Shown piece after piece: positions 12,366 to 64,000 of a stretch of 64,000 nucleotides of DNA. The notes under the pieces were generated by a model that ran no database searches, was not told the DNA's origin, and saw only the letters and a program-made list of their open reading frames with translations. A program made the translations under genes and the position numbers. Source of the stretch: Nitrospira sp. (lineage in GTDB: Bacteria; Nitrospirota; Nitrospiria; Nitrospirales; Nitrospiraceae); NCBI GenBank assembly GCA_029194675.1, contig JARFXP010000002.1, positions 248,001 through 312,000 on the forward strand, written 5' to 3'. Each line of letters starts with the position of its first letter. Within the stretch, counting starts at the first letter, position 1.

Positions 12366-12489
12366 AAACACTCGGTATCCAGCAACCAGCACTAAACGAG
12401 GCCCGGGGTCGTTGCAGATCGGACTCCGAGGTATCAAGGGACACCGTGGGCTTTCTTATTTCGCACAAAGGATTTTGAGGAGATACACG

Positions 12490-13086: not shown

Positions 13087-13110
13087 GGAAGGTGGTCCTC
13101 CGATTCGTCA
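13083..13110 (+). promoter_or_regulatory. Candidate ECF-sigma promoter before fecR
   Basis: GTGAGG (13083-13088) overlaps the sigma-factor stop codon and is followed by a 17-base spacer and CGTCA (13106-13110), 50 bases before the FecR start. It is the weakest of four similar elements (-10 is CGTCAC, not CGTCTAC). It would give autogenous expression of the anti-sigma gene. Confidence 0.4.
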
Positions 13111-13123
13111 CACTGTATACTAA

Positions 13124-13156
13124 GCGGCCTCGTCGAGCATCAGCCGACGAGGCCGC
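13124..13156 (+). promoter_or_regulatory. 12-base-pair hairpin over the fecR ribosome site
   Basis: A perfect inverted repeat: left arm GCGGCCTCGTCG (13124-13135), 9-base loop, right arm 13145-13156, ending three bases before the ATG at 13160. No T-run follows, so it is not a normal terminator. The only ribosome-site-like GAGG (13150-13153) is inside the right arm, so folding would hide it. Confidence 0.6.
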
Positions 13157-13159
13157 CTC

Positions 13160-47300: not shown

Positions 47301-49246
47301 TGCTGGAGCAGCCGGGGGTTCTGGAAGCTGTGGTGATGGCGCGTGAAGATCAGCCCGGACAGCGGCGGCTGGTCGCATACGTGATACCGGATGGCCCGGA
47401 AGCGTTGGATCTCCAAGAAGTGCGGCGTCGGCTCCAAGACAGGTTGCCGGACTATATGATTCCGAGTTCGTTCGTCCTCATGGATACCTTGCCGCGGAGC
47501 TCAAACGGAAAGATCGACCGCCGAGCGCTGCCGGCTCCGGACCTCGCCGGACAGGCGGAACGCTCCTACCGGCCTCCGGCTACGCCGGCAGAGGCGGCAC
47601 TCACGAAAATTTGGGAAGAAGTATTGGGGTTGGCGCAGGTCGGCACGCAGGACAATTTTTTCGAACTGGGCGGCGATTCCATCGTAAGCCTACAAGTGAT
47701 TGCCCGGGCCAAACAGGTTGGATTGTTGCTCAGCCCCCGCCAGATCTTTCAACACCAAACGGTGGCCGAGCTTGCGGCGGTGGCCGGACGGGAAGCAGTG
47801 GTCGCGCTGGAAGCGGAGCAGGGAGCGGTCACGGGAGAGGCGCCATTGACGCCTATTCAACGCGCGTTCTTCGAATTGCCGCTGGTCAATCCTCACCACT
47901 GGAATCAATCGGTCTTGCTGGAAGCGAAAGAGCCGCTCGCGGAGTCGGCCTTGGAGACCGCGGTGGCGGCGCTCATCGCACACCATGACGCGCTACGGCT
48001 TCGATTCGTGCAGACGGATGGCGGTTGGCGCCAATCGCACGCGCCGATTCCGCAGGGGCCGCTTGTCCGCCGTGTGAATCTTGCCGCGCTCTCCGACTCG
48101 GAACGCTGTGCGTCGTTCGAAGCGCAGGCCACGCAGTGGCAGGGGAGTTTAAATATCTCGGAAGGGCCGCTCTTGCACGTAGTCTGGTTCGAGATGGGGG
48201 ACGGTTCGTCTGATCGGTTGTTGATTGCGGTGCATCATCTTGCGGTGGACGGTGTTTCCTGGAGAATCTTCTTGGAGGATCTGCAGACCCTCTACCGGCA
48301 GGCCGTGGAAAACCGTCCGATACCATTGGCGCCCAAAACGACTTCTTTCCGCCAGTGGGCCGAACGGTTACGGCGGTATGCCGAAACCGAAGTCACGAAA
48401 GATCCGTCTTCCGCCGTCTGGCTGACGACAGAGGGAGAGCGATCGATCGTGCTGCCCGTCGACGATCCAACCGGCAGTGATCGGGAGGCCGCCTCCGAGA
48501 CGCTGACTGTGTCATTGGACGAACGGGATACGCAGGCGCTGTTACATGATATCTCTGCCGCGTACGGAACGCAGATCAACGATGCGCTGTTGACGGCGTT
48601 GGTCCAGACGCTTGGTCGATGGATCGGTCTCGATCGTGTGACGATCGATCTCGAAGGGCACGGGCGGGAGGATTTGTTTCCAGAACTGGATATCTCGCGC
48701 ACGGTCGGGTGGTTCACCAGCGTCTTCCCAGTGACCTTGGACTTGACACACTCGGATTCGCCCGGAGAAGCGCTCAAGACGGTGAAAGAACAACTGCGGA
48801 AAATTCCAGGCCGCGGTGTCGGTTACGGGATCGTTCGATATCTGACGAAGCACGGTCTCGAGGCAGCCGGGGCGCGCCCTGCCCCGCGGGTTCCGGTGGG
48901 ATTCAACTATCTCGGACAGTTCGATGCGGTCGCCACGGAAGAGTCGTCCTTCGTTCTGTCTACAGAATCGGTCGGCAAGGAGCACGATCCCCGCAATCCG
49001 ATGGAATATGAACTGGATATCAATGCGTCAGTCGTGAACGGATGCCTGGAGGTCATGTGGACATACAGCCGCGAACGCTATCGTTCTGGCACGATCACGT
49101 CCCTGGCGACGGCATATCAAAGAGATTTGCGAAGGTTGATCGCCCATTGTCTGTCCACCGACGCAGGCGGTTACACGCCGTCCGATTTTCCAAATGTGGA
49201 TTTGGAACAGGACGCGCTGGACGCGATCTTAGAGCAAATGAACTGA
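41375..49246 (+). CDS. NRPS, two modules: C-A(Dab)-PCP-C-A(Dab-like)-PCP-E
   Basis: 2623 residues, GTG start with AGGAGA upstream. Module 1 has a DCL-type C (YPLSPMQEGMLFH; active-site motif HHILLDEW near 147, with Glu in place of the usual Gly), A near 628 with code D-I-W-E-L-T-A-D-D, the Dab code, and PCP near 1023 (GGHSL). Module 2 has an LCL C (HHIVSDGW near 1223), A near 1704 with D-I-W-E-L-T-V-D-D (Dab-like, Ala to Val at one pocket position), and PCP near 2092 (GGDSI). It ends in an epimerisation domain (about 2160-2600; HHLAVDGVSW, EGHGRE, GWFTSVFP, FNYLGQ), so this residue should be D-configured. It is the only E domain in the window. Confidence 0.93.
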   Translation: MTKSALPDHIDSIYPLSPMQEGMLFHTLMNPGTGIYLMQNRYLLEGDLNYDAFVRAWNVVLDRHPVLRTSFVWKNQKRPLQAVHKRVDVPIVSLDWRGQTRREQIARLDAELEAELREGFDFAKAPLMRLWLIRLADDRYQFVHSFHHILLDEWCISLLLMDFLGHYGSLVRGERLTREKPRPYRDYIAWLQKQDITASESFWRGYLKNFPTPTPLPYDRLPEGLADQNEDAADHCLYLSADTSATLVDLAQRHRLTVNTFFQGAWALLLSYYSSEREVLFGVTVAGRPTELLGVESILGLFINTLPLRISMQPDRPLTDWLKDLLAENVRVRQYDYAPLVQMQRWSEVPRGEALFHSLFVFENAPVDRELSEGRIIFKGEEEQYRVHTNYPLTVMGWPGRELGLKISYDKRLFDPDTTGRMIRHFKTLLEVMAEQPTARLADLSPLKQDERLQLLTEWNPEAVAACEEQSESLPRLFEAQVERRPDAVAVECLEEKATYRELNRRVNRVAHALAEAGVQPDTVVALLDDRGIDLLTMMLGVFKAGGAYLPLDPHHPVSRLIQVVKLSRSSVVLTSQKYLARLQEAVVVIDEASRPRLMAIERILDEACREDNPGDRGQSEHLAYVIYTSGSTGVPKGAMVTRRGMLNNIRSKVSGLALGPADVIAQTASQCFDISVWQFLTALTCGARTSIVPDDTSQDPFQLLTHLERVDITILETVPALLQGLLDAASEVRSDAAPRLQRLRWVLPTGEALPPPVCRQWLARYPTIPLLNAYGPAECADDVAVHPILEPPAADMTHMPIGCPIEGTRLHILNAWLEPVPPGVCGELYVAGIGVGRGYLQDPARTAEVFLPDRFGSEPGARMYRTGDLARYRRDGAIEFVGRVDQQIKLRGFRIELGEIETHLLSSPLVREAAVLLHTDARGEKRLAAYLVGHEEGGLSVPALRELLLPQLPEYMVPTAFVPLPVLPRTPNGKIDRLALEALDLGDQFARSYTAPRTATEEILAGIWSDVLGVERVGVHDDFFELGGHSLLATQIMSRLRSTFHVELSLRTVFESTSVAALAAAVDRAREDVAAIQAPPLVPVDRTGPLPASFAQQRLWFLAQLEPDSPFYNLPAGFRLLGRLDVDLLTAGLNQVIGRHEALRTVFQETDGQPTQVVLSSMMVEIPVVDLREIPEEKRTDELTKQTEAEAQRIFDLTRGPLVRARVWRIGEEEYVLLMTLHHIVSDGWAMDVLIRELVTYYQAGFSGQPSALPPLSIQYADYAVWQRDWMQGAVLETQLAYWKDRLGDAPAALELPTDRPRPTVQTYRGACCEFAVPGELVQQITGFSRRQGLTLYMTLLTAFTALLHHYSGRTSILVGSPVANRLRIEVEELIGLFVNTLVLRTDIPDNPRWIDLLDRVRKEVLDAQTHQDLPFEHLVDALRPERNLSHSPLFQVMFTVQTPAEQSMEPPGLRVDNMEIDPGTALFDLSLDMVVEPDRLSGSFEYNTDLFDESTVREFADGFLKILASIIAKPEGRLHDTSPLTERERHLQLVEWNNVPGPDLTLDYVARFAAQVERTPESTAVVCREQSWTYRELHQRASKTADALAAAGVGPDSVVALLGERGPGLLAMILGVLEAGGAYLPLDPRHPKQRMAQIGELSRPLVLLVTREWEARATDLVNELPADRRPRMLTIEQVMERDIDPAGLRPIRAAGRLAYLIYTSGSTGTPKGVMVAQEGMLNNILYKLDSLEMSADDVVAQTASQCFDISVWQFLAALLCGARVHIVLDDVAHDPTALLYHLDEAGITIVEPVPAVLQGLLAVDGSVPALARVRWVLPTGEALSSALCRRWFARYPTIPLMNVYGPAECSDDVATHAMYAPPDDGDRPVPIGRPVPGLRLYILNRHLSPVPVGTAGELCVGGVGVGRGYLHDSKRTAAAFVPDPFGPDAGARLYRTGDLARYRPDGAIEFVGRVDHQVKIRGYRIEPGEIEARVLEQPGVLEAVVMAREDQPGQRRLVAYVIPDGPEALDLQEVRRRLQDRLPDYMIPSSFVLMDTLPRSSNGKIDRRALPAPDLAGQAERSYRPPATPAEAALTKIWEEVLGLAQVGTQDNFFELGGDSIVSLQVIARAKQVGLLLSPRQIFQHQTVAELAAVAGREAVVALEAEQGAVTGEAPLTPIQRAFFELPLVNPHHWNQSVLLEAKEPLAESALETAVAALIAHHDALRLRFVQTDGGWRQSHAPIPQGPLVRRVNLAALSDSERCASFEAQATQWQGSLNISEGPLLHVVWFEMGDGSSDRLLIAVHHLAVDGVSWRIFLEDLQTLYRQAVENRPIPLAPKTTSFRQWAERLRRYAETEVTKDPSSAVWLTTEGERSIVLPVDDPTGSDREAASETLTVSLDERDTQALLHDISAAYGTQINDALLTALVQTLGRWIGLDRVTIDLEGHGREDLFPELDISRTVGWFTSVFPVTLDLTHSDSPGEALKTVKEQLRKIPGRGVGYGIVRYLTKHGLEAAGARPAPRVPVGFNYLGQFDAVATEESSFVLSTESVGKEHDPRNPMEYELDINASVVNGCLEVMWTYSRERYRSGTITSLATAYQRDLRRLIAHCLSTDAGGYTPSDFPNVDLEQDALDAILEQMN

Positions 49247-49258
49247 CTTGGAGCAGGC

Positions 49259-52200
49259 ATGAGTAAGAAAAAGGATATCGAGTCGATTCATTATCTCTCT
49301 CCACTGCAAGAAGGACTGCTCTTCCATGCCGTGTCCGACGCGGATGCGGATCCATATTTCACGCAGACCGGCTTCATCATCGACGGAGAGCTGGACATCA
49401 AGCCGTTCGAGCAGGCCTGGCAAAAGGTGGTGGAGCGTCATCCCATTCTCAGGACCGGCTTCGTTTGGGACGGCCTCAAGAAACCCATGCAGGTTGCGCG
49501 GCGTGGCGTGCGGGTTCCGCTGCAACTCCTCGACTGGCGGGCCCATCACAGCCGCCGGCGGGACGAAGCGCTGGCGATGTTTCTACGCGAAGATCGCCGG
49601 AAACCGTTCGATTTGCTGACGCCGCCCATGATGCGGCTCACGCTGATCCAGATGGAGAATAATCGCTGGTATTTCATCAACAGCCACCACCACATTCTAT
49701 TGGATGGTTGGAGCGTGGCGCTGCTCCTGCGCGAGGTGCTGAACTGTTACGACGCGCTGGCGCACGGGCGACAGCCGGTGCTACCACCCGTGAGACCCTA
49801 TGCGGAGTATTTAACTTGGCTGAGGAGCCGCAATCTGGAGTCCGCCGAGATATTCTGGCGGAACGGCCTGGCGGAATTTTCGACACCGACCGCGTTGCCG
49901 CTGGAGATGCCGCAACGCGTGGCTTCCGACGAACTGAAATCCCTGCCGTACGCGGAGCAGGAAGTGCGCCTGTCGAAGGCGGAAGTCGAAACATTGACCG
50001 CCGCCGCCAAACGCCGCCGCCTTACGTTGAACACTTTGGCGCAAGGGGCATGGTCGATCCTATTGCACCGGTGCACCGGGGCGCGCGAGGTGCTGTTCGG
50101 TGCGACCGTCTCGGGCAGACCGGCGGAACTTCCCGGGTCGGACGTCATGGTCGGACTGTTCATCAACACGCTGCCGGTTCGGGTCACCCTGCCCCCTGAT
50201 GTAAAACTGGAAGACTGGCTTGCTTCGCTACAGGAACAGAATAGCCTGCTGCGGCAATACGAGTGGACGCCTTTGTCACGGATTCAACGCTGGAGCGACA
50301 CACCGGGCGGGCGGCCGTTGTTCGACAGTATCATCGTTTTTGAAAGCTACCCGGAAGATGGGAGCGACAGGGATCAGCTCGGTTTGCGGATCACTCCCTT
50401 GGCTTCTCACCGGCAAGATGCCGAGTATGTCCTGACGGCCGGTCGCAACAACTATCCGCTGTCACTGATGGTGGAGCCGGCCGCGGAGCTACGGTTGATT
50501 CTCTCCTATGCGCGCGAGCGGTTTGCACATGGAGACATTGCGCGCCTCCTTGGTTATTACCGCACGCTCCTGATGGCGATGGCGGAACGGCCGGAGGTCC
50601 GCCTGGGCGAACTGTCTCCGCTGAACGAGGCGGAGCGTGGCCGTCTTCTGATGGACTGGAACCGCACCATGGTTCCCGTGAAGAGCGAACGTATCCATGA
50701 ACGGATTGCACGAGTTGCGCACGAACGATCCGATGCCGTGGCCGTCGTCTATGAGGGGCAGTCCTTGACCTATGGAGAACTGGACGCCCGGGCGAACCGG
50801 CTTGCGCAGTACTTGCAAAAACTCGGTATCGGTCCGGACATGAGGGTCGGTCTCTGTGTGGAACGATCGCTCGACTTGATCGTCGGATTGCTCGGGGTGC
50901 TCAAAGCAGGCGGCGCGTATGTGGCGCTCGATCCCAAGCTTCCGAAAGAACGGCTGGCTTTTATGCTGTCGGACAGCGGCGCACGGGTAGTCCTCACGCA
51001 GGCCGCATCCGGTGACCTGTCCAGCGATTCGATGTTGCGGCAAGTTTATCTTGACCGCGATTGGCCGGAAATCGTGGCTGGGACCGATGAGCCGCTGCGG
51101 CGTCACGTGCGACCGGAAAACTTGGCCTACGTCATCTACACTTCCGGTTCGACCGGGCGGCCGAAGGGAGTCACCGTCGAGCATCGTCAGGTCGTCAACT
51201 ACGTTTCCGGACTCCTGTCGCGCCTCTCGCTCGATGAAGCGACCAGTTTCGCGACCCTGTCCACGGTGGCGGCAGATCTCGGCAACACCTCGATCTTCGG
51301 TGCACTCTGTTCCGGTCGCACACTGCACATGCTGTCGGTCGATCGGGGATTCGATCCCGACGCCGTCGCGGACTACATGGCCGGCCACCGGATCGACGTG
51401 CTGAAAATCGTGCCGAGCCATCTGACCGGCCTACTTGAAGCGGGACGGCCGGAGCATGTGCTTCCGCGGCGTTGCCTGATCCTGGGCGGTGAGGCAGTTC
51501 ATAGCAGCCTTGTCGAACGGATCCGGACGCTCGCACCGGACTTGGAGATCATCAATCACTATGGACCTACGGAAACGACGGTCGGAGTCCTCACCCATCG
51601 AATCGATGCGGAACCGGACCGGCATGCGGCTATTCCAATCGGACGACCCTTGGCAAACAGCCAAGTCTTCATTTTGAATCCTGACGGTCAGCCGACGCCG
51701 GTGGGAGTCTCCGGCGAATTGTATGTTGGCGGTGACGGGCTGGCGAGAGGTTATCTCGCTCGTCCGGACCTGACTGCGGAGCGGTTTGTGCCGAATCCCT
51801 TCAGCGGGCGGGGCGGGCGTCTGTACCGCACCGGTGACCGGGCACGGTATCGACCGGACGGCACCGTTGAGTTCCACGGCCGCTTGGACAATCAAGTAAA
51901 GGTGCGCGGATTTCGGATCGAGTTGGGAGAAATCGAAACGCAGTTGCGGGGAGACGGCAGATTGAAGGACGCCGTCGTGATCGTGCGAGAAGCAGCCGAC
52001 GGCACGAAGCAGCTTGCAGCCTATGTCGCGGGGCCGGCCGATCTCGACCTAGACTCAGTTCGGTCCCATCTGGCGGTTCATTTGCCGGATTATATGATTC
52101 CTTCCACCCTTACCGTACTGGATGCGCTTCCCCTGACCGCCAACGGCAAGATCGATCGAGCGGCGCTTCCTGACCCCGAGCAGGCACAGACGCCGCAGCG

Positions 52201-55200
52201 TGACGCCTACGCCGCTCCACGGAACGACGTCGAAACGACGCTTGCGCAAATCTGGGCCGATGTCTTGCATGTTGATCGGGTCGGAATTCACGACAACTTC
52301 TTTGCGATCGGCGGCGATTCCATCCTCTGTCTACAGATTGTTGCCAAGGCTCACCGCGCGGGCATCAAGCTAACGCCCAAACTGGTGTTTCAACATCATA
52401 CGATCGCCGCTCTGGTGGCTTCTCTCGATGAACAAGTTCCCCTCACGGGAGCAGAAGAACCGCGCCCGGATACCGCGTCGATCGAACCGTTTGCTCTTGC
52501 GAGGGTCGATAAAAGTCAGTTGGACTCCATCCTTGCCCGATTCGGAGCGGATGTCGAAGACGTGTACCCGAGTTCTCCAATGCAACAGGGCATGCTGCTT
52601 CATTCCTTTCAAGGGGATAAGACGGGCGTTTATCACAACCAGCTGACATATACGTTCTCTGCTGACTTTGACGACCGTGCCTTCACGCAAGCCTGGCAAC
52701 GGATGATCGAAGACCATGCCATTCTGCGGACCGGATTTCTGTGGAACGTCGCACCGGAACCACTGCAAATAGTTTTTCGCAGCATCCCTGTTCCGATCGA
52801 ACGTCGTGATTGGCGAGGATTGTCAGATGAGAGGGAACGGGAAACTGCATTGCGTGAATACTTGGCGCAGGACCGGATACGCGGATTTGACGTTGCGAAA
52901 CCACCGCTCATGCGGTTGTGTATCATCCGCATGAGGGAACAGCTATGGTGCATCGTGTGGAGCCTCCATCATGCAATCCTCGATGGATGGTGCCAGGCCC
53001 TGTTGCTTAAGGAAGTGCTGGAAACTTATTACCTGCTTCGGAGTGGGCAGGTCCCCAGGAAGCACTCCACATCATCCTACCGAAACTATATTCAGTGGCT
53101 CCTGCGGCAGGACATGACAGCGGCGGAAGCGTTCTGGAGGCAGTTTCTACATTCCTTCCACACGCCAACTAGATTGATTTACTCGACGAAGCCTGTTCGG
53201 CCTCTTGATCGCCGCTATGGAGAGCACCGAGTCGAGTTTTCACAAGGGCGCACCGCTGGAATCCATCGGCTCGCTCAATCCCTGCACGTGACGGTGAACA
53301 CGGTGATTCAGGGGGCCTGGGCGATCCTCCTGTCTCGCTACAGCGGTGAGCAGGATGTCCTCTTCGGTATTACAGTTTCCGGTCGTCCTCCCGATCTACC
53401 AGGTGGACAGGCGATCATCGGGCTGTTCATCAATACGCTGCCTCTTCGGGTGCAGGTCGCCCCAGAGGCCAACTTGGAGAATTGGCTGCGCGACATTCAG
53501 GCAACTAATGTGGAGTTGCGAGGATACGAATACAGTCCCTTGCTCCGGGTGCAGGGATGGAGCGGGATCAAACGAGGAGTTCCACTTTTTGATAGCGTGC
53601 TCGTTTTTCAGAACTATGTGATCGACGATGCTATCGAGAAGCACAGTCAAGAGCTCGGCATTGATCTACTCGATGGCGAAGAAGGGTGGACCGACTTTCC
53701 ACTGACCGTCACAGTCGTTCCAGATCAGCAATTATCACTGATCTTTTCGTATGACAGGCAGTGCATAGACGATCGATCGGTGGAATGCATAGCGGAGCAT
53801 TGGGGACTATTGCTCGACAGCATGGTCGCAAATTCCGCATCCAGACTGACCGAGTTGTCGATTGTCTCGACTGGCGATCAGCAGCGACTGTTGGTCGACT
53901 GGAATGCGACCGAGCGGTCTTATCCTTCCCGTTGCCTGCACGAAATATTCGAATCCCAGGTTGAACACACACCAGATGCCATTGCGGTAATCTCCGAAGA
54001 GATTGCTTTAACGTACCGAGAACTGAACACCCGCGCCAACCAGCTGGCTCGGGTATTACGAGAAGAAGGTGTTGGGTCGGATGTCCTGATAGCCCTATGC
54101 CTTGAACGTTCTCATGACCTGCTTGTCGCGATGCTTGGGATCCTGAAGGCAGGAGGTGCTTATGTGCCGCTCGATCCGACGTATCCTAAGGAACGTTTGA
54201 AATACATGCTAAGGGATTCCATGGCACCAATAGCGCTAACGCACAGGAAACTGCTTGAGGGGATGAAGCTGGACGGCGTTCAGTTAATCGACATGGATGA
54301 TTGGGGTCGAATGGTCGGTCAATCCGATCAGAACTTGCCGGTAACGCAATCGCCTGATCACTTAGCTTATGTCATCTACACCTCCGGATCGACAGGCAAG
54401 CCGAAAGGGGTCATGGTCCGGCATTGCAGCGTGGTGAACTTCCTCCTGTCAATGATCGAGGCTCTGCGTCCGTGCAATGACGAAGTTGTTGCGGCCACAA
54501 CATCGGTTTCCTTCGACATTGCGGTCTTGGAATTGTTCTTGCCCTTGGTGATCGGAGCTAAAACGGTCATTGTAAGCCGCGACGTGGTGGTCGAAGGTCC
54601 TAGATTGGTTGCGGAACTCGAGCGGGTCGGCGCAACCTTCATGCAGGCGACCCCATCGGGATGGAGGTTGTTGCTCAGTGCCAAGCGTCTTCCAAAGCTG
54701 AAAGTATTGTGCGGTGGCGAGGTGTTTCCGCGGGAACTGGCTCGTGAATTCCTAGCCAATCAATTGAATCCCTACAATCTATATGGCCCAACCGAAACAA
54801 CTGTCTGGTCAATGATAGCTTCTGTGACCCATGCCGATGATACCGTCCCAATCGGTCTTCCAATTGGCAATACTCAGGTGTACTTACTCGATGCTTCGTT
54901 CTGCCTAGTTCCGATAGGTGTTCCCGGTGAAGTCTATATCGGTGGTGATGGCTTAGCCAGAGGTTATTGGCAGAGACCAGAACTAACGGCGGAACGATTT
55001 ATTCCGAATCCGTTCAGTCGGCAACCTGGTGGCCGGCTCTATAGAACCGGTGATCAGGCCCGTTATCGTCCGGATGGGACAGTGGAATTCCTTGGGCGTG
55101 TCGACCATCAGGTCAAGATCCGAGGGTATCGAATTGAATTGGGAGAAATCGAAGCGCGGATGATGCAGCATCCACACGTTCGGGAAGCCGTCGTGGTCGT

Positions 55201-57157
55201 CAGGGAAGACCGTCCGGGAGACAAGCGGCTGATTGCCTACATCGTGAGCGAGAGTCCCGCATGCGACGCAGCAGCCATCCGATCATTCACGGCCGAAACG
55301 CTGCCGGACTACATGGTCCCTTCCGTGGTGATGTTCCTGGATACATTGCCATTGACGCCGAACGGAAAGGTTGATCGGAAGGCCTTGCCGGTGCCGGATG
55401 ACGATCAACTGTCGCCGCGCGACGGAGCCCCGGGCACCGCGACCGAAGAGATTCTGGCCGGGATCTGGGCCGAGATCCTCGGCCTCAAGCACCTCGGCGT
55501 CCACGATAACTTTTTCGAGCTGGGCGGCCATTCGCTCCTCGCGACACAGGTGGTATCACGGGTTCGCTCGGTCTTTCATATTGAATTGCCGTTGCGCGCT
55601 TTATTCGATCATCCCACCGTTGAAGAGTTTGCCGCTGCTGTCGACCGTTCTGTGGCAGCAGAAGGAGGTAGACAACTTCCGCCGCTTGTGCTTACGCCGA
55701 GAATCGAATCCATGCCGTTATCATTTGCGCAGCAGCGGCTCTGGTTTCTATGGCAACTCGCCCCGGACAGTCCGATGTATAACGTTCCCGTGGCTCTGCG
55801 AATCACCGGCTCCTTGGATGAAGCGGCGCTGGCAAACAGTTTCTATCAATTGGCGTGCCGCCATGAGGTAGTACGTACAACGTTTCCCATGAGCGGAGGT
55901 CAGCCGATACAGGTCATCGCCCCGGAACCCATACATTCGATGTCCGTATCCGACCTCAGGGATGTGTCGACGGACGAACGCGAGGCAATCGTTCAATCGC
56001 TGACGCGGGAAGAAGCACTAAAGCTATTTGATCTGTCGAGCGGACCATTACTGCGCGTGCACTTGTTGCGAATAGACGACCAAGAACAGGTCCTGCTCGT
56101 CACCATGCACCATATTATTTCAGATGCTTGGTCAATGACTGTACTTATTGATGAGATAACGAAGTTATACGCCGCATCTGTGACCGGACAGGCATGCTCG
56201 TTGTCGCCGCTGTCGGCGCAATACGCAGATTATGCGGTATGGCAGCGGACATGGCTGGCGGGAGATGTACTGGACAGACAATTGGCGTATTGGAAACAAC
56301 AGTTGAAAGATGTTCCCGTGATTGCCTTGCCGACGGATCGGCCGAGACCAACTGTCCAGACCTACCGAGGTGCCATTCATTCTATGAGCATATCCAATGG
56401 TGTGGTGGACCGGCTCAGAACCTTGGGGCGAAGGCGTGGGGCGACGTTGTTTATGACCCTCCTGACTGTGCTGAAGGTGCTGCTTAGATATGAGACCGGT
56501 CAGCGGGACATCGTGGTGGGGACCGACGTGACCAATCGCAACCTGCTAGAAGTTGAAAACCTCATAGGCTTCTTTGTCAATCAAATCGTACTGCGTGTGG
56601 CTGTCGATTCTACGCTCTCATTCCAAGAGCTGCTTGATCGGGTTCGTGATGTGACGCTGGCGGGGCATGCTCATCAGGATGTACCGTTTGAAATGCTGGT
56701 CGCTTCCCTCAAGGTGAAGCGCGAGCTTCAGTACTCGCCCTTGTTTCAAATCAAACTGATTCTGCAACAAGCCCCTCCACCGGCAGACGAGCCTCCGGGC
56801 TTGTCGCTCAGCGTCATGGACAATGAAAAGACAACCGCCGAATTGGATATGTTACTCAATTTTGAAGAGAGCGCCGATGGATTGAGTGGATGGGTTGAGT
56901 ACAACATCGATCTCTTCGATGCCGGGAGCATCGCTCGGCTTGCGAGATATTTCTCAGTGATTGTCGAGCAGGTTGCAACGAATCCCCACGTCACGGTTGA
57001 AGAACTCGAACGCATGCTGGCGGAGCACGACAATCTCCAGCGAACCAGATTCCGGCAAGAACATCACCAAGCGACCAGTAGGAATCTCAAGAGCATCCGG
57101 CGAAGGGCAATGAGCCCGCCCCCTATAAACCTCTCAAGCATGAGGACCGATCGATGA
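49259..57157 (+). CDS. NRPS: C-A(Asp)-PCP-C-A(Gly)-PCP-C, ending in a lone C domain
   Basis: 2632 residues, ATG with GGAG upstream. Module 1 has a DCL-type C (HHILLDGW near 144), A near 627 with code D-L-T-K-I-G-H-V-G, the aspartate pattern, and PCP near 1011 (GGDSI). Module 2 has a DCL-type C (HHAILDGW near 1236), A near 1706 with D-I-L-Q-L-G-L-V-W, the glycine pattern, and PCP near 2083 (GGHSL). It then ends with an LCL C domain (about 2150-2575; HHIISDAW near 2284) and a short basic tail, with no A domain following. The matching A domain is in the NRPS after the second hydroxylase gene, so one module is split between proteins. The second half is lower in GC than the first. Confidence 0.92.
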   Translation: MSKKKDIESIHYLSPLQEGLLFHAVSDADADPYFTQTGFIIDGELDIKPFEQAWQKVVERHPILRTGFVWDGLKKPMQVARRGVRVPLQLLDWRAHHSRRRDEALAMFLREDRRKPFDLLTPPMMRLTLIQMENNRWYFINSHHHILLDGWSVALLLREVLNCYDALAHGRQPVLPPVRPYAEYLTWLRSRNLESAEIFWRNGLAEFSTPTALPLEMPQRVASDELKSLPYAEQEVRLSKAEVETLTAAAKRRRLTLNTLAQGAWSILLHRCTGAREVLFGATVSGRPAELPGSDVMVGLFINTLPVRVTLPPDVKLEDWLASLQEQNSLLRQYEWTPLSRIQRWSDTPGGRPLFDSIIVFESYPEDGSDRDQLGLRITPLASHRQDAEYVLTAGRNNYPLSLMVEPAAELRLILSYARERFAHGDIARLLGYYRTLLMAMAERPEVRLGELSPLNEAERGRLLMDWNRTMVPVKSERIHERIARVAHERSDAVAVVYEGQSLTYGELDARANRLAQYLQKLGIGPDMRVGLCVERSLDLIVGLLGVLKAGGAYVALDPKLPKERLAFMLSDSGARVVLTQAASGDLSSDSMLRQVYLDRDWPEIVAGTDEPLRRHVRPENLAYVIYTSGSTGRPKGVTVEHRQVVNYVSGLLSRLSLDEATSFATLSTVAADLGNTSIFGALCSGRTLHMLSVDRGFDPDAVADYMAGHRIDVLKIVPSHLTGLLEAGRPEHVLPRRCLILGGEAVHSSLVERIRTLAPDLEIINHYGPTETTVGVLTHRIDAEPDRHAAIPIGRPLANSQVFILNPDGQPTPVGVSGELYVGGDGLARGYLARPDLTAERFVPNPFSGRGGRLYRTGDRARYRPDGTVEFHGRLDNQVKVRGFRIELGEIETQLRGDGRLKDAVVIVREAADGTKQLAAYVAGPADLDLDSVRSHLAVHLPDYMIPSTLTVLDALPLTANGKIDRAALPDPEQAQTPQRDAYAAPRNDVETTLAQIWADVLHVDRVGIHDNFFAIGGDSILCLQIVAKAHRAGIKLTPKLVFQHHTIAALVASLDEQVPLTGAEEPRPDTASIEPFALARVDKSQLDSILARFGADVEDVYPSSPMQQGMLLHSFQGDKTGVYHNQLTYTFSADFDDRAFTQAWQRMIEDHAILRTGFLWNVAPEPLQIVFRSIPVPIERRDWRGLSDERERETALREYLAQDRIRGFDVAKPPLMRLCIIRMREQLWCIVWSLHHAILDGWCQALLLKEVLETYYLLRSGQVPRKHSTSSYRNYIQWLLRQDMTAAEAFWRQFLHSFHTPTRLIYSTKPVRPLDRRYGEHRVEFSQGRTAGIHRLAQSLHVTVNTVIQGAWAILLSRYSGEQDVLFGITVSGRPPDLPGGQAIIGLFINTLPLRVQVAPEANLENWLRDIQATNVELRGYEYSPLLRVQGWSGIKRGVPLFDSVLVFQNYVIDDAIEKHSQELGIDLLDGEEGWTDFPLTVTVVPDQQLSLIFSYDRQCIDDRSVECIAEHWGLLLDSMVANSASRLTELSIVSTGDQQRLLVDWNATERSYPSRCLHEIFESQVEHTPDAIAVISEEIALTYRELNTRANQLARVLREEGVGSDVLIALCLERSHDLLVAMLGILKAGGAYVPLDPTYPKERLKYMLRDSMAPIALTHRKLLEGMKLDGVQLIDMDDWGRMVGQSDQNLPVTQSPDHLAYVIYTSGSTGKPKGVMVRHCSVVNFLLSMIEALRPCNDEVVAATTSVSFDIAVLELFLPLVIGAKTVIVSRDVVVEGPRLVAELERVGATFMQATPSGWRLLLSAKRLPKLKVLCGGEVFPRELAREFLANQLNPYNLYGPTETTVWSMIASVTHADDTVPIGLPIGNTQVYLLDASFCLVPIGVPGEVYIGGDGLARGYWQRPELTAERFIPNPFSRQPGGRLYRTGDQARYRPDGTVEFLGRVDHQVKIRGYRIELGEIEARMMQHPHVREAVVVVREDRPGDKRLIAYIVSESPACDAAAIRSFTAETLPDYMVPSVVMFLDTLPLTPNGKVDRKALPVPDDDQLSPRDGAPGTATEEILAGIWAEILGLKHLGVHDNFFELGGHSLLATQVVSRVRSVFHIELPLRALFDHPTVEEFAAAVDRSVAAEGGRQLPPLVLTPRIESMPLSFAQQRLWFLWQLAPDSPMYNVPVALRITGSLDEAALANSFYQLACRHEVVRTTFPMSGGQPIQVIAPEPIHSMSVSDLRDVSTDEREAIVQSLTREEALKLFDLSSGPLLRVHLLRIDDQEQVLLVTMHHIISDAWSMTVLIDEITKLYAASVTGQACSLSPLSAQYADYAVWQRTWLAGDVLDRQLAYWKQQLKDVPVIALPTDRPRPTVQTYRGAIHSMSISNGVVDRLRTLGRRRGATLFMTLLTVLKVLLRYETGQRDIVVGTDVTNRNLLEVENLIGFFVNQIVLRVAVDSTLSFQELLDRVRDVTLAGHAHQDVPFEMLVASLKVKRELQYSPLFQIKLILQQAPPPADEPPGLSLSVMDNEKTTAELDMLLNFEESADGLSGWVEYNIDLFDAGSIARLARYFSVIVEQVATNPHVTVEELERMLAEHDNLQRTRFRQEHHQATSRNLKSIRRRAMSPPPINLSSMRTDR

Positions 57158-58224
57158 ACGATTCAAATCAGAAAACCGAGACCATGCCAAGATTGAGAGG
57201 CATACGCCGGAAGGCCATCAGCTTATCCCAGGAGCACCTTGTGACGGCGGAACCGCTTCTCCCCGGGAAAGTGCTTCCCTTGCTGGTTCAGCCAACTGTA
57301 ACAGGACTCAGCATAGTGGGTTGGGCCGAGCAACAACGAGAATGGGTGCAGACGCGGCTTCTGTATCACGGTGCCATCTTGTTTCGAAACTTTCAGGTCA
57401 ACGGGGTCACAGATTTTGAGCAGTGTGTGACGGCCCTATCCGGAGGTGCGCTGGAGTATCGTTTCCGGGCCTCACCGCGCACGCAAGTGGGTGCGAATGT
57501 GTATACGGCTACCGATTATCCGCCGGACCAGAGCATTTTCCCCCACAACGAGCACGCGTACTCTCCGGTCTTCCCGCTTCAGCTGTTCTTTTATTGCGCT
57601 GTTCCGGCGCAAAACGGCGGAGAAACTCCGATTGGGGATACGCGCGAGGTTCATCGGAGTATCGATCCAGAAATCAAGCGACGATTCCTCAAGAAGCAAA
57701 TCATGTATGTGCGTAATTATGGCGACGGTTTCGGCCTTCCATGGCCGACGGTCTTTCAGACTGAGGATAGATCTCAAGTGGAGGCATACTGCCGAAGCGT
57801 GGGAATAGAAGTGGAATGGAAGACAGGGAACCGACTGAGGACCAGGCAAGTGGGGCCGGCCGTCATGCGTCATCCACGAACCCAGGAGCCCATTTGGTTC
57901 AACCATGGAACATTCTTTCACGTCTCAACATTGGAACCAACCATACGAGAAGCGCTTCTGAAAGAATTCACTGAAGAGGATTTGCCTCAGAACACATACT
58001 ACGGAGATGGGCAGCCAATCGAGCCGGACGTTCTTGAACATCTTCGGTCGATCTATCAGGAAGCCATGGTTGTGTTTCCATGGCAACAGGGGGATGTGTT
58101 GCTATTGGACAACATGCTGGCCCTTCACGGGCGCAGGCCGTTCAGCGGACCGCGCAAAATCTTGGTGGCGATGGCAGAAGCCTGCCGCGGAGCCGATTTT
58201 CGCCTAGTGGCGGAGGAGATGTGA
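57154..58224 (+). CDS. SyrP/TauD-like Fe(II)/2-oxoglutarate amino-acid beta-hydroxylase (second copy)
   Basis: 356 residues, homologous along its length to the copy at 33769 but clearly diverged. Iron ligands are His131 and Glu133 (PHNEHAY) and His325 (LALHGRR); Arg334 (GPRKI) would hold 2-oxoglutarate. It sits exactly between an NRPS ending in a C domain and one starting with a C-like domain that has lost its catalytic motif, overlapping the first by four bases and two bases before the second. This placement suggests it docks on that degenerate domain and hydroxylates the residue loaded by the following A domain, for which I read a His-like code. The substrate is inferred, the enzyme family is secure. 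Confidence 0.88.
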   Translation: MNDSNQKTETMPRLRGIRRKAISLSQEHLVTAEPLLPGKVLPLLVQPTVTGLSIVGWAEQQREWVQTRLLYHGAILFRNFQVNGVTDFEQCVTALSGGALEYRFRASPRTQVGANVYTATDYPPDQSIFPHNEHAYSPVFPLQLFFYCAVPAQNGGETPIGDTREVHRSIDPEIKRRFLKKQIMYVRNYGDGFGLPWPTVFQTEDRSQVEAYCRSVGIEVEWKTGNRLRTRQVGPAVMRHPRTQEPIWFNHGTFFHVSTLEPTIREALLKEFTEEDLPQNTYYGDGQPIEPDVLEHLRSIYQEAMVVFPWQQGDVLLLDNMLALHGRRPFSGPRKILVAMAEACRGADFRLVAEEM

Positions 58225-58226
58225 TC

Positions 58227-61200
58227 ATGTCAGGGAGCGACGCACCGAATAGTATGGTCCAAGGGTATCGCCTGTCACCCCAACAAGAACGTGTGTGGTT
58301 GTTAGAGCGCGGTGCGCAGTCAATACGTCTTTTCGCCCGATGCCGCGTGATGCTCGAGGGCTCGCTTGATGCAGCGGTGTTGAAAATGGCGCTTGAGGAT
58401 ATCCTGCAACGTCATGAGATTCTCCGCACCACACTCCAATGTATTCCGGGCATGACGTTGCCTGTGCAGGTGATCGCAGAACAGAGTGCGTTGTCGCATC
58501 AGGAGTATGATTTGACGGGACGGATGCCTAGCGACCAGGAGTGTCAGATCGAAACGCTCCTGCAAGGATTGCAAGAGGAACGGGCCGATTCGATGAGCAG
58601 TTCGTCGATGCATACGATCTTGATAAAGCTCAGTGACGTCAAGCATCTGTTGATGATCGACTTGCCCGGCTATTGTGTAGATGGGGTGACATTCAAGAAT
58701 CTCATCCGCGAACTCGAAGCAACCCACGAGGCCTATGCTCAAGGCGTCAGTGCTGTTCTCGATGATCCGTTGCAGTACGCGGACTTTGCAGAATGGCAGC
58801 ACTCGTTATTGTCGGATGAAGCGGGGCAGGTTGGGCGTACGCATTGGCGCAAGCAGGCAGAGGGGATCGTCGGTCCGCTTGGAAATCGGTTGCCCTTCGA
58901 GCGGGCGCTCAGCGACGGTGTGAATCTCACTCTCAAGCGAATACCCATTGCCATATCGAAGAAGTGCTTGGCTCAAGTCAATTCCCTTGTCGAACAGAAG
59001 GCGAGTGCAAGCTCGACGTTTTTCTTGGCATGTTGGCGCATCTTGCTCCAACGGCTCATCGGACGAGAAGACATCGTGGTTGGTGTGGCCTGTGACGGCC
59101 GGACGCATGACGAAATGCGGAATGCCTTCGGGCCTTTTGCAAGATATCTCCCAGTACTGACCACTCTCGATCAGAACCTCCCATTTAGCACGGCTCTCGA
59201 GCGGCTCCAACAAGCTGTGGCTGAGGCTCATGAATGGCAAGAGTATTTCGCGTGGGAGGACATCCAGAACGCGCCAATACGCGGCGATGGTTCTTACTTT
59301 CCATTTTGTTTCGAATTCGAGGAAGAACAATCATCCTGCTCGAATGCCACGCTTTCATTCAGAATCGAGAGCAAAGAAACGTACCTCGATCGATTCAAAA
59401 TTCGACTCGTCTGTCATCGAAAAGACGGTTTCATCGATGCCATATTGCAATACGACGAATCGTGCTATCCGGATGAAGTGATGGCATGCCTTGCGAAACA
59501 GTTGGAGACGCTTGTGAGTCAAGCTGCATGCCAACCAGAGGCAGCCATCGGTGACATCGAGACATTGGGCGAGCTGGAATGCCACCAAGTGTTGCACACC
59601 TTCAATGTCTGTCCCCCTCAAGAGCGGTGCGATCAATGCCTACATCACTTATTTGAGGCACAGTCCGCGCATGCACCGGACAATATTGCTCTGGTATATG
59701 AGGAGCAATCAGTCACGTATCGCGAGCTTGATAGGCGGGCCAACCAATTGGCCCACTATCTGAAAAGTCAGGGAGTTGGACCTGAAACAGCGGTTGGGAT
59801 TTGTGTGGAGCGCTCCCCGGAATTGATCGTGGGGCTACTGGGGATTCTCAAGGCAGGCGGAGCCTATGTACCGATTGATCCATCGTATCCGAAGGATCGA
59901 AGGGACTATCTCCTCCACGATTCACGAGCTCCCATTCTGTTGATTCAGAATCGGTTTCGGGAGGAATTCCTCGGAACGCCGGTCTCCATCGTGAGTATTG
60001 ATTCGGAGACTCAGCCATTCGAGGAATACAGCGAGCTGAAACCATCGACTCATGAGACTCCGGCCGGAGTGGCCTATATCATCTACACTTCGGGTTCGAC
60101 CGGTCGCCCCAAAGGTGTGCTGGTCACTCATCGTAATGCGGTTCACTCTACAAAGGCACGGCGAGCTTACTACAAGAAGCCCGTGACCAGCTTTCTCTTA
60201 TTGTCTTCGTTTGCGTTCGATAGCTCGGTGGCGGGAATTTTTTGGACGTTGAGCCAGGGTGGCAGGCTCTGTCTTGTCCGGGAGGGAGTTCAGAAGGCTC
60301 CATCTGAACTTGGGGCGTTGATCGAACAGGCGCAAGTGACCCATTTGTTGTGTTTGCCCTCGCTGTATTCCGTATTGCTCGAACAAGTACCTGTCGCACA
60401 GCTGAACTCGCTCCACACCATCATTGTCGCGGGAGAATCCTGTCCGAAGGACTTGGTGGCTAGACACCAGGCGAATCTACCTCTTGCGCTGCTTTTTAAT
60501 GAGTATGGGCCAACTGAGGGGACCGTTTGGAGCACAGTGCATCGGACCAGTGTTTCAGATGAGGGGGCAACCGTATCGATCGGCCGACCGATTGCCGGTG
60601 TGAGGATCTACATTTTGGATGCCCACATGAGACCTGTGTCTATCGGCATGCTGGGTGAATTGTTCATAGCCGGAGAGGGACTGGCTCGTGCGTATCACGA
60701 CCGGCCGGACCTGACTGCGATGAAATTTATTCCAGACCCCTTTTCTCCAGTAGAGGGTGGCCGGTTGTATCGAACCGGTGATCTGGCTCGCTATAGACCA
60801 GACGGCACTATCGAGTTCGCGGGCCGAGGTGACCAGCAAGTAAAAATTCGCGGCTACCGCATCGAGCCGGGTGAGATCGAAGCACGACTTCTCGAACATC
60901 CTGCTGTACAGGACGCCATCGTTCTAGCGCGGGAAGCTGTTACAGGGGACATGCTCATGGTGGCGTACGTCGTCCAGCGGGAAAACGCCCAGGACACGAC
61001 TGCATTGCGAGAATTCCTCAAGGAGCGTCTGCCTGAATACATGATTCCGTCAGCGACGATCGTGTTGACAGGGTTTCCGCTGACGCCAAACGGGAAGGTC
61101 GATCGTAAGGCGTTGCCGATGCCGGATGTGACCGGGCAATTGGCGCATCAATATGTCGCGCCTCGATCGCCGACAGAAGAACTATTATGTGGGATTTGGG

Positions 61201-64000
61201 CGAATGTGTTGCAGGTGGCGCAGGTGGGTGTTCACGATAACTTCTTTGATTTAGGCGGACACTCCTTGCTGGCGACACAGGTGATGGTGAGGTTGCGTGA
61301 TGTGTTTCGCGTAGATCTGCCGATGCGAGTCTTGTTCGAGACCGCAACGGTGGCCAAACTGGCCGAAGCAGTGGAATCGGCCCGTCTTCTGGACGGAAGC
61401 ATGGACGCGCCGTCGATCTCGCGAGTGGAACGTGACGGACCGGTTCCGTTGTCCTTCGCCCAGCAGCGTCTATGGGTATTGACGCAACTGGAACCGCATG
61501 GAGCTTCCTACAATCTTCCGATTGCGCTGCGGCTATCGGGAAGGCTCGATGTAGCGGCCCTGGAACGGAGTGTCAACGAACTGGTCCGTCGGCATGAAGT
61601 GCTGCAGACTATAGTGTCTCTGTCGGACGGACAACCGGTACAAACCGTGACGCCGGCATCGACGATGTCAGTGCCTCTTGTCGCACTCGATCATTTGTCT
61701 GGATCGGAGCGGGAGGCGGCTGTATTGCGGCTTGCGACGGACGAAGCTCAGCGTCCATTCGAGCTGGCCTATGGCCCCATGCTGCGTGTCACGCTGCTTA
61801 AACTCGACGCGGAGGAACACGTTCTGCTCTTGACGATGCACCACATCGTGTCCGACGCGTGGTCCTCACACATTCTGGTGCGGGAAATGACCGAGCTGTA
61901 TATCGCTCAGGTTCAAGGCAGACCGGCGTCCCTGCCCGAACTGCCGGCTCAATACGCGGATTTCGCGATATGGCAACGACAATGGTTGTCCGGCGCGCGC
62001 TTGGATCGCCAAGTCGATTACTGGAAGGAGCGGCTGGCCGGTGCGCTCGAGCCGTTGAATCTTCCGATGGATCGTGCGCGATCACCGGTTCAGACTTCCC
62101 GCGGCGCGTCGCTGACGCTTTTGTTGTCCTCTGAATTGTCCGCAGCCATGACCGAGCTCAGCCGGCGCGAGGGTGTGACCATGTTCATGACCCTACTGGC
62201 GGGGTTCTATACGTTGCTGTTCAGGTATACGGGCCGGACGGACCTTATCGTCGGGTCTCCGATCGCCAACCGCACCCGTAGCGAGATCGAAGGGCTCATC
62301 GGGTTCTTCGTGAACACGCTGGCGTTGCGGGCCGATCTGTCGGGAAGACAGACCGTTCGCGAGCTCCTCGCGCTGGTTCGGCAGGTGTGCCTCGGCGCCT
62401 ACACACATCAGGACGTGCCGTTCGAAAAACTGGTAGAAGTGCTGCAGCCAGTGCGCGACGTCAGCTACTCGCCGATCTTCCAGGTCATGTTCGAGCTGCA
62501 AAACGCCCCTGCATCGGAACTGGACATACCCGGACTTCGCATCGATACAGTGGATGTAGAATCGCTGACAGCCAAGTTCGATCTGACCCTGACGCTGTGC
62601 GAAACCGACAGTGGGCTGACCGCATCGATGGAATACAACACCGACCTGTTTTCCGCTGATCGCGTCATGCGTATGCTTCGGCACTATGAATTGATTCTTC
62701 AGAATATGGCTGCGAGGCCCGATGCGGCGATCGAGGAATTGCGCCTGTTGACCGGTGAGGAAGAGCAGCGCTTGTTGACGGACTGGAACGTGGGACCCAG
62801 CCTTCCGGTGCCGGATCGGTCATTTTCCCGGTTGTTCGAAGCGCAGACGTCGGCGACACCGGACAGCGTGGCGGCCGTCTGGTTGGATCGGCGTGTGACC
62901 TATCACGAATTGAATCGCCGGGCCAACCGAGTCGCCCACGCGTTGCTGCTCAAAGGAGTGGGGCCCGAAACGGCCGTGGCGCTTTTAGGCGACCGAGATT
63001 TGGACTTTCTCACGATGCTGCTGGGAATTCTCAAGGCAGGGGGTATTTATCTACCGCTCGACGCGGGGCACCCGGATCATCGGCTGGCGCATATGCTCGG
63101 CGAAAGCCGCGCGCCTGTGCTGTTGACCACGGAGGCCTATCGGCAGCGTGTGAAGCCACTGACGGAAGGGCTTGCAGAGAACTCAAAGCAGATCCTGCTG
63201 ACGATGGAGGAAATTCAGTCGTCGGTGGAGCAGGACAGCAATCCCAGTACGCCGTGGCATGCCGCGCAGACCGTCTATGTGATCTATACCTCCGGCTCCA
63301 CGGGACTGCCCAAAGGCGCGATGGTCGAACATCGAGGGATGCTCAATCACCTGTGGGGAAAAGTGACGACGCTTCGGCTGACCGCCACTGACGTGATTGC
63401 TCAGACGGCGTCCCAGTGCTTCGATATTTCCGTCTGGCAATTTTTGGCCCCGCTCTTGTGCGGGGGACGCGTCTGCATCGTTCCCGACGACATCGCTCAT
63501 GACCCAGCGCGGCTATTGCGCCACGTGGAAGCGGCTGGCGTCACGGTTTTCGAGACCGTGCCAGCGTTGCTGCAGGGCATGCTCGATATGGCGGCCGATG
63601 CGGACGATCGTGAGCCTGAACTCAAACGGCTGCGGATGGTTCTGCCGACTGGAGAGGCGCTGTCCGGGCAACTGTGCCGCCGCTGGCTCGGCCGCTATCC
63701 GTCGATTCCGCTGGTCAATGCCTATGGCCCGGCGGAATGTGCGGACGACGTGGCTCTGCATCAGATTATCGAGAGTCCGGACGGGGAGGCCGCCTTTATG
63801 CCGATCGGCATGCCGGTGCCCAATCTCGATCTCTATGTGTTGTCGCCGTCTCTCAAGCCGCTGCCGGTCGGAGTGGCGGGAGAATTATGCGTGGCGGGAG
63901 TCGGCGTTGGGCGGGGATACCTGTTGAATCCGGCCAAGACGGCCGAAGTATTTGTGCCCCATCCCTTCGCGAAAGAGCCGGGCGCCCGTCTGTACCGGAC
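58227..64000 (+). CDS. NRPS (3' end beyond window): interface-like C*-A(His-like)-PCP-C-A(Dab)-
   Basis: Open frame from ATG 58227 to the window end without a stop (1924 codons visible). The first domain (about 12-440) is C-like (LSPQQERVWLL, RHEILRTTL) but HHxxxDG is replaced by LPGYCVDG (Pro147), so condensation activity is unlikely. The A domain near 619 has code D-S-A-C-I-A-E-V-W, closest among codes I remember to histidine (D-S-E-L-T-A-E-V-C). PCP is near 1002 (GGHSL). Next come an LCL C (HHIVSDAW near 1205) and a second A (YTSGSTGLPKG near 1687) with D-I-W-E-L-T-A-D-D, the Dab code; the window ends inside this A domain. Further modules and a terminating thioesterase must lie downstream. 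Confidence 0.9.
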   Translation, partial: MSGSDAPNSMVQGYRLSPQQERVWLLERGAQSIRLFARCRVMLEGSLDAAVLKMALEDILQRHEILRTTLQCIPGMTLPVQVIAEQSALSHQEYDLTGRMPSDQECQIETLLQGLQEERADSMSSSSMHTILIKLSDVKHLLMIDLPGYCVDGVTFKNLIRELEATHEAYAQGVSAVLDDPLQYADFAEWQHSLLSDEAGQVGRTHWRKQAEGIVGPLGNRLPFERALSDGVNLTLKRIPIAISKKCLAQVNSLVEQKASASSTFFLACWRILLQRLIGREDIVVGVACDGRTHDEMRNAFGPFARYLPVLTTLDQNLPFSTALERLQQAVAEAHEWQEYFAWEDIQNAPIRGDGSYFPFCFEFEEEQSSCSNATLSFRIESKETYLDRFKIRLVCHRKDGFIDAILQYDESCYPDEVMACLAKQLETLVSQAACQPEAAIGDIETLGELECHQVLHTFNVCPPQERCDQCLHHLFEAQSAHAPDNIALVYEEQSVTYRELDRRANQLAHYLKSQGVGPETAVGICVERSPELIVGLLGILKAGGAYVPIDPSYPKDRRDYLLHDSRAPILLIQNRFREEFLGTPVSIVSIDSETQPFEEYSELKPSTHETPAGVAYIIYTSGSTGRPKGVLVTHRNAVHSTKARRAYYKKPVTSFLLLSSFAFDSSVAGIFWTLSQGGRLCLVREGVQKAPSELGALIEQAQVTHLLCLPSLYSVLLEQVPVAQLNSLHTIIVAGESCPKDLVARHQANLPLALLFNEYGPTEGTVWSTVHRTSVSDEGATVSIGRPIAGVRIYILDAHMRPVSIGMLGELFIAGEGLARAYHDRPDLTAMKFIPDPFSPVEGGRLYRTGDLARYRPDGTIEFAGRGDQQVKIRGYRIEPGEIEARLLEHPAVQDAIVLAREAVTGDMLMVAYVVQRENAQDTTALREFLKERLPEYMIPSATIVLTGFPLTPNGKVDRKALPMPDVTGQLAHQYVAPRSPTEELLCGIWANVLQVAQVGVHDNFFDLGGHSLLATQVMVRLRDVFRVDLPMRVLFETATVAKLAEAVESARLLDGSMDAPSISRVERDGPVPLSFAQQRLWVLTQLEPHGASYNLPIALRLSGRLDVAALERSVNELVRRHEVLQTIVSLSDGQPVQTVTPASTMSVPLVALDHLSGSEREAAVLRLATDEAQRPFELAYGPMLRVTLLKLDAEEHVLLLTMHHIVSDAWSSHILVREMTELYIAQVQGRPASLPELPAQYADFAIWQRQWLSGARLDRQVDYWKERLAGALEPLNLPMDRARSPVQTSRGASLTLLLSSELSAAMTELSRREGVTMFMTLLAGFYTLLFRYTGRTDLIVGSPIANRTRSEIEGLIGFFVNTLALRADLSGRQTVRELLALVRQVCLGAYTHQDVPFEKLVEVLQPVRDVSYSPIFQVMFELQNAPASELDIPGLRIDTVDVESLTAKFDLTLTLCETDSGLTASMEYNTDLFSADRVMRMLRHYELILQNMAARPDAAIEELRLLTGEEEQRLLTDWNVGPSLPVPDRSFSRLFEAQTSATPDSVAAVWLDRRVTYHELNRRANRVAHALLLKGVGPETAVALLGDRDLDFLTMLLGILKAGGIYLPLDAGHPDHRLAHMLGESRAPVLLTTEAYRQRVKPLTEGLAENSKQILLTMEEIQSSVEQDSNPSTPWHAAQTVYVIYTSGSTGLPKGAMVEHRGMLNHLWGKVTTLRLTATDVIAQTASQCFDISVWQFLAPLLCGGRVCIVPDDIAHDPARLLRHVEAAGVTVFETVPALLQGMLDMAADADDREPELKRLRMVLPTGEALSGQLCRRWLGRYPSIPLVNAYGPAECADDVALHQIIESPDGEAAFMPIGMPVPNLDLYVLSPSLKPLPVGVAGELCVAGVGVGRGYLLNPAKTAEVFVPHPFAKEPGARLYR

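Follow-up and report, generated by a model that had tools for sequence, protein, structure and literature searches.

Interface domains and the locus under study

Non-ribosomal peptide synthetase (NRPS) interface domains were reportedly described by Reitz et al. in PNAS in 2019, together with β-hydroxylases of the I type, and antiSMASH 8 has profiles for them. By that account, such a system has a condensation (C)-like domain without the HHxxxDG motif at the start of a synthetase, a TauD hydroxylase encoded directly upstream, an adenylation (A) domain for Asp or His following it, and a siderophore setting. We found no biochemical test of the interface-domain role in the open-access literature, the role having so far been proposed from genomics. 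Here we analyse a locus with all these features in a stretch of 64,000 nucleotides from Nitrospira sp. (assembly GCA_029194675.1, contig JARFXP010000002.1, positions 248,001 to 312,000 of the forward strand), the whole of which is referred to as the window. It differs from that account in that the hydroxylase is a separate gene lying between a terminal C domain and the C-like domain that lacks the motif (the dead domain), in that the module is His-coded, and in that the genome is of the Nitrospirales type.

On the basis of sequence comparisons, we propose with a probability of about 0.82 that the three genes here share one β-hydroxyhistidine (β-OH-His) module in the assembly line of a lipopeptide siderophore, and that its dead domain would position the hydroxylase on the His-loaded peptidyl carrier protein (PCP).

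The split module

The three genes encode the synthetase N5 (49259-57157; 2632 aa; C-A(Asp)-PCP-C-A(Gly)-PCP-C), the TauD/SyrP-like Fe(II)/2-oxoglutarate hydroxylase TauD#2 (57154-58224) and the synthetase N6 (58227-65450 in window numbering; interface-A(His)-PCP-C-A(Dab)-PCP-TE, where Dab is diaminobutyrate and TE a thioesterase domain). The TE lies past the window end, and the part of N6 beyond position 64000 was read from the host contig. These and all other features given below are on the + strand.

As the original prediction had it, N5 closes with a complete C domain (55709-57019; Pfam Condensation, 335 bits; HHIISDA intact at 56108-56128) and has no A domain after it. This domain belongs to the LCL group and is placed among active LCL domains in the tree discussed below, in keeping with the proposal that it is the true condensation domain of the module. 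The location predicted for the split module also holds, except that its start, set at 56000, has to be moved back to 55.7 kb, where the terminal C domain begins. The SyrP-like hydroxylase gene is indeed next (PF02668, E=2e-47). Its first 4 nt overlap the stop of N5 and its end is 2 bases short of N6, and the three genes are probably co-translated. The Fe(II) facial triad of TauD#2, aligned to 1Y0Z, is supplied by HNE, within HNEHAY (57544-57561), and a distal His (58123-58143).

N6 opens with the dead C-like domain (58227-59585; Pfam Condensation 58263-59585), which at 178 bits has the lowest Condensation score among 11 in the cluster. The sequence quoted earlier for its motif, LPGYCVDG, has one residue too many; the aligned equivalent of HHxxxDG is PGYCVDG (58665-58685). 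The reading of a C-like start without the motif stands. It is followed, again as predicted, by an A domain (59658-61115; code DSALIAEVWK; core motifs intact) and a PCP, whose phosphopantetheine site DNFFDLGGHSL (61236-61268) is the presumed carrier for His hydroxylation. Since N5 ends in C without A, TauD#2 lies between, and N6 opens with C-like-A-PCP, the module C / hydroxylase / (C-like)-A-PCP is genuinely spread across three genes.

The A domain of N6 would load L-His onto the N6 PCP, and the N-terminal C-like domain, unable to condense, would hold the stand-alone TauD#2 against the loaded carrier, where the hydroxylase would oxidise the β carbon of the carrier-bound His. The terminal C domain of N5 would then link β-OH-His on the N6 PCP to the chain carried by the last PCP of N5 (after Gly), with a basic tail at the end of N5 probably keeping it docked to the hydroxylase/N6 complex. 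In the finished siderophore, the β-OH-His may serve to bind iron.

The dead domain

Across 82 copies of the dead domain, both His of HHxxxDG are absent and the Asp is kept in every one, which argues that the loss of the two His is not chance. The fourth motif position is Cys in 59 of the 82 and otherwise varies (Y, I, S, L, N), and the family consensus at the site is PALCADx.

The original prediction had called for a check on whether the domain clusters with active C or starter domains. This was made with a tree of 90 C-like domains, a quick tree with SH-aLRT support, in which loci of Variovorax (L110, variochelin-type) and cyanochelin loci served as stand-ins for the published interface reference set. 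The N6 domain falls within a single clade of 28 N-terminal dead domains (SH-aLRT 99), drawn from cyanobacteria (including CcsL of cyanochelin B), Nitrospirota, Acidobacteria, Chloroflexota and the fused-hydroxylase clusters of Variovorax and Bradyrhizobium. The domain that follows the fused hydroxylase of the cyanochelin B cluster is also a member. Epimerization (E) domains form their own group, and the LCL, DCL-like and Cy domains stand apart from the dead clade; this placement rules out a starter domain or an inactivated DCL or LCL domain. The sole other row labelled as dead, outside the clade, is a mislabelled DCL-like domain. The exact place of the Bradyrhizobium and Variovorax rows is less sure, because they sit on long branches in a quick tree.

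The fold is predicted to be that of a C domain. A profile comparison matches it to solved C domains with E 1e-60, and an AlphaFold model, made from an alignment of 33 sequences from the window and the genome loci, has a C-domain fold (pLDDT 86), with C domains as the best Foldseek matches (TM 0.8) and the glycopeptide X domain 4TX3 also near the top. In no protein does a dead domain come after a PCP, in line with a place at the start of the synthetase, and interface subtype I has likewise been located at the synthetase start (PMC10212144). Fold, motif loss, separate clade, N-terminal position and TauD partner together make a well-supported case that the N6 domain is an NRPS interface domain.

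Pairing of dead domains with hydroxylases

The original prediction had taken the N6 domain for a C relative without the motif, linked to a TauD-type hydroxylase. Besides the clade, this reading is borne out by gene pairing, which was counted over loci L001-L109, gathered by dead domain rather than by hydroxylase. Redundant copies and those with too little DNA on the upstream side set aside, 72 dead domains remained; a TauD gene or domain lies ≤400 bp upstream of 57 of these, as against 3/281 active C domains. In 20 of the 57 TauD is fused to the upstream synthetase, and in 37 it is separate. Almost every upstream synthetase has a C domain at its end that retains HH. The synthetase at 715-7536 of L072 has a terminal C-like domain (aa 1806-2247) without canonical HHxxxD, which may be a variant motif or a genuine exception.

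The two partners also vary together. Across 62 pairs, the identities among hydroxylases correlate with those among dead domains (Mantel r 0.66, with 0/999 permutations as high), a correlation to which shared species history could contribute. Nine clusters contain two pairs, and in 9/9 of them both dead domains resemble a counterpart from a different organism more than they resemble each other.

Several observations weigh against the positioning role proposed for the dead domain. Adjacency is not absolute, because 15/72 dead domains have no TauD ≤400 bp upstream; in several of these 15 a methyltransferase or another gene separates the domain from a somewhat more distant hydroxylase, and for about ten dead domains no TauD was found within the locus DNA examined. 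A second hydroxylase of the same cluster, TauD#1, belongs to another clade and has no dead domain; it precedes a synthetase that opens with an active C domain, and not every hydroxylase therefore needs a dead domain, so that carrier-bound hydroxylation may not always require one. Finally, the assignment to interface domains and to the IBH_His hydroxylases is drawn from position, motif, and loci of the variochelin and cyanochelin types.

The first two of these points would fit a dead domain that is a structural cap only, stabilising the A domain or docking N5 to N6 while the hydroxylase finds the PCP unaided. It is well established that C and A domains usually form a rigid platform, and TauD#1 seems to work without such a domain. 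Repeated inactivation of C domains is not what is observed, however: the dead domains are one conserved clade, and they track the type of hydroxylase both across organisms and within clusters. We consider the cap unlikely, and favour a domain that positions the hydroxylase.

At four loci (L007, L041, L064 and L121) the genes of the hydroxylase and of the dead-domain synthetase are separated by one resembling SAM-dependent methyltransferases, which suggests further modification of the hydroxylated residue.

Exchange of the module among relatives

The arrangement occurs in two versions: split, with a hydroxylase that stands alone, and fused, with the hydroxylase joined to the upstream C domain. 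The split His version of the window recurs in the genome G017, whose dead domain is 93% identical. In the same slot, three genomes of the same genus (G006, G010 and G027) have a hydroxylase fused to the terminal C domain, a dead domain only 28-30% identical and an Asp code; two of the same order (G055 and G058) also have the fused C-TauD version. Among named relatives the fused version is found in Nitrospira sp. HKST-UBA08 (L078) and in a Nitrospirales metagenome-assembled genome (L067). In L067 there is also a split version of the His type, whose hydroxylase is 69% identical.

The breakpoints can be followed along the alignment of the window with G027. The first C and A domains of N5 are 86-88% identical. 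Identity falls to 59% for the PCP, 48% for the terminal C domain, 42% for the hydroxylase, 29% for the dead domain and 42% for the A domain, with 71% for the PCP after it, and is back to 89-91% over the following C-A-PCP of N6. Judged from these values, the unit of exchange is PCP-C-hydroxylase-interface-A, which comprises the entire split module and the PCP before it. The second C-A pair of N5 (40% and 53% identical) varies separately from this block, since G006, with the fused Asp version, has a Gly code like the window, and G017, with the His version, has a Dab code.

The basic tail of N5

After its terminal C domain N5 has a basic C-terminal tail (57023-57154), a candidate docking element that includes NLKSIRRRAM (57083-57112) and is homologous to the C-TauD linker of the fused relatives. 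The N5 protein ends in SRNLKSIRRRAMSPPPINLSSMRTDR. Synthetases that end in C ahead of a dead-domain synthetase have a common end, approximately QKLKxxKRKxIS after a helix-like stretch (tails in L031-L083). A loose form of this motif is present in 38/48 such ends and in 11/137 other synthetase ends, and the last 25 residues have on average a net charge of +4.4 in the tails before dead-domain synthetases, compared with -1.4 and -0.4 at other ends. The Fisher p of 2e-20 for the motif overstates the case, because the motif was composed after inspecting the tails, the sequences are related, and shuffled tails of equal composition match in 14.8/48.

Fused proteins have the same element once, as the C-TauD linker KFKSIxPKAV (25/25 linkers by the loose pattern). 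With separate hydroxylases it recurs at the hydroxylase N-terminus, as RLRGIRRKAIS (57190-57222) in TauD#2. It is present even at loci with no hydroxylase gene between the two synthetases: at L071, L074, L038, L048, L077 and L073 a C-ending synthetase with a basic tail is followed directly by a dead-domain synthetase, and in most of these no hydroxylase was found anywhere within the locus DNA.

We conclude from these comparisons that the tail is probably a docking element, which either arose from the fused linker or gave rise to it. It is so widely conserved that a pure relic is less likely. A relic is what would be expected if the gene break were accidental, N5 and the hydroxylase having been fused until recently and the tail being a functionless, decaying remnant; the fused form in relatives of the same genus, and the resemblance of the N5 tail to the fused linker, are in line with this. 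Decay is hard to reconcile with a tail kept over dozens of loci, and the same His clade has stand-alone hydroxylases from Nitrospirota, cyanobacteria and proteobacteria. We consider an accidental break unlikely.

Taking exchange and tail together, we put forward a two-part proposal, tentatively and at somewhat below even odds: that PCP-C-hydroxylase-interface-A may be a natural cassette that swaps β-hydroxyaspartate (β-OH-Asp) and β-OH-His within one genus, and that the basic tail, with the hydroxylase N-terminus, may be a docking element, so far undescribed, that takes the place of the covalent linker between C domain and hydroxylase where the latter is separate.

Substrate and hydroxylases

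The codes of the A domains were read by alignment to GrsA, using a reference sequence that is internally consistent with the code DAWTIAAICK. Assignments of codes to residues other than His follow established knowledge. Across the family, the A domains after dead domains have codes for Asp, Asn and His, and a few are Gln-like or unreadable. DSALIAEVWK, the code of the N6 A domain, has been described as a His code accepting the β-hydroxylated form (PMC12283262). TauD#2 lies within a clade of 11 hydroxylases, each of which is paired with this same code. Because of the code and the all-His clade, the product of the split module is predicted to be β-OH-His rather than β-OH-Asp, His being most likely the substrate. 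Of the precedent invoked originally, that of β-hydroxy-Asp/His synthetases, the His half is thus retained for the split module, and Asp is replaced.

TauD#1 (33637-34794) is 48% identical to TauD#2. It falls in a separate clade (SH-aLRT 99) of stand-alone hydroxylases with no dead domain after them, and it adjoins a thioesterase gene, as in the MbtH-TE-TauD clusters of proteobacteria. Two kinds of hydroxylase of β-OH-Asp siderophores have been named TBH and IBH (PMC12971057). TauD#1 and TauD#2 resemble these kinds, since they are in separate clades, the one without and the other with a dead domain. The TBH_Asp type, a clade without interface domains and with the MbtH-TE-TauD context, was considered for TauD#2 and rejected: TauD#1 is inside this clade and TauD#2 outside it (SH-aLRT 99). 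NCBIfam gave no specific name for either protein.

N5 has an Asp-coded module, and one could suppose that TauD#2 acts on this or another residue of the chain and owes its position to coincidence. The better candidate for that Asp is TauD#1, whose orthologues are constant among relatives, and TauD#2 is in an all-His clade and is exchanged along with the His A domain. Action elsewhere is therefore very unlikely. TauD#1 is probably the partner of the N5 Asp module, and likely an Asp β-hydroxylase of the same siderophore.

We give least credence to the idea that the dead domain catalyses some other reaction with its conserved Asp and frequent Cys, for instance dehydration in the manner of the modified-amino-acid C domains (PMC10212144), given that the Asp of HHxxxDG is established as structural in C domains, that both His are missing throughout, and that the Cys varies.

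The nearest named relatives of TauD#2 are in Massilia, Methylocapsa, Methylocystis and cyanobacteria. No clear Pseudomonas-type His hydroxylase was found in 369 genomes of the class of Massilia, with matches above the cut in three only. In Massilia frigida (L130; G059:C22:169588-170637) the hydroxylase match lies in a 2028-aa open frame interrupted by one TAA, possibly an intermediate between the fused and split forms.

The surrounding gene cluster

The window is predicted to contain a complete-looking lipopeptide siderophore cluster. The FecI/FecR-type regulators, the TonB receptor, the fatty acyl-AMP ligase (FAAL) and the Dab aminotransferase argue for a siderophore pathway. The regulators (12412-14149) adjoin the gene of the TonB-dependent receptor (14247-16856). 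The starter synthetase N1 (17195-22567) has the organisation FAAL-ACP-C-A-PCP (ACP, acyl carrier protein), a mark of lipopeptides, and its A domain has a basic-type code. It is followed by N2, a type I polyketide synthase module (22569-27170), an ABC exporter (from 27184), a diaminobutyrate aminotransferase for Dab supply (28925-30331) and an acylase of the penicillin-amidase family (30328-32772). The acylase has a weak match to PvdQ, and may deacylate a precursor as in pyoverdine maturation.

The thioesterase gene next to TauD#1 starts at 32906. Downstream of TauD#1 are N3, C-A(Dab)-PCP-C-A(Ser)-PCP (34791-41366), and N4, C-A(Dab)-PCP-C-A(Dab)-PCP-E (41375-49246), which precede N5. The first C domain of N4 has HHILLDE in place of HHxxxDG, and the same is found in the relatives G006, G010 and G055. 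Rfam and tRNA scans of the window gave no matches. Within Nitrospirota, regions for non-ribosomal peptide metallophores have been reported in 15/307 genomes (PMC12971057).

Comparison with known systems

The locus is of interest in several respects. Close relatives have the same slot filled by either a fused Asp or a split His version, which makes a clean test bed for interface domains, and their natural breakpoints show which pieces travel together. If the tail does dock, trans hydroxylases could be placed on chosen modules, for the engineering of photoreactive or tighter siderophores and of other peptides. The machinery for β-OH-His siderophores is also extended to Nitrospirales-type bacteria and cyanobacteria.

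A close match in layout is CcsK/CcsL of cyanochelin B (Leptolyngbya sp. NIES-3755, L006; PMC12628792), which has a terminal C domain with a basic tail, a stand-alone hydroxylase and a dead domain-A-PCP in the same order, with the dead domain in the same clade. It differs in being Asp-coded and in having an E domain after the module. The term interface domain is not used in the cyanochelin paper (PMC12628792). The fused C-TauD versions of G006, G010, G027, G055 and G058 occupy the same slot in an orthologous siderophore cluster, and likewise combine a terminal C domain with a dead domain; their hydroxylase is fused to the terminal C domain, their dead domain is 28-31% identical to that of N6, and their code is for Asp.

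The IBH_His hydroxylases of histicorrugatin-type β-OH-His siderophores share with TauD#2 the TauD fold, a His-coded partner module and a lipopeptide siderophore, a likeness drawn from their description. The glycopeptide X domain (4TX3) is also an inactive C fold, one that brings a tailoring oxygenase to a substrate bound on a carrier, and its structure matches the N6 model with TM 0.80. It is C-terminal and has P450 partners, whereas the N6 dead domain is N-terminal with a TauD partner, and these two differences speak against an X domain here.

An interface domain with an I-type hydroxylase is a kind of system already known. What is new is its split His version in Nitrospirales-type bacteria, the exchange of the cassette, and the tail.

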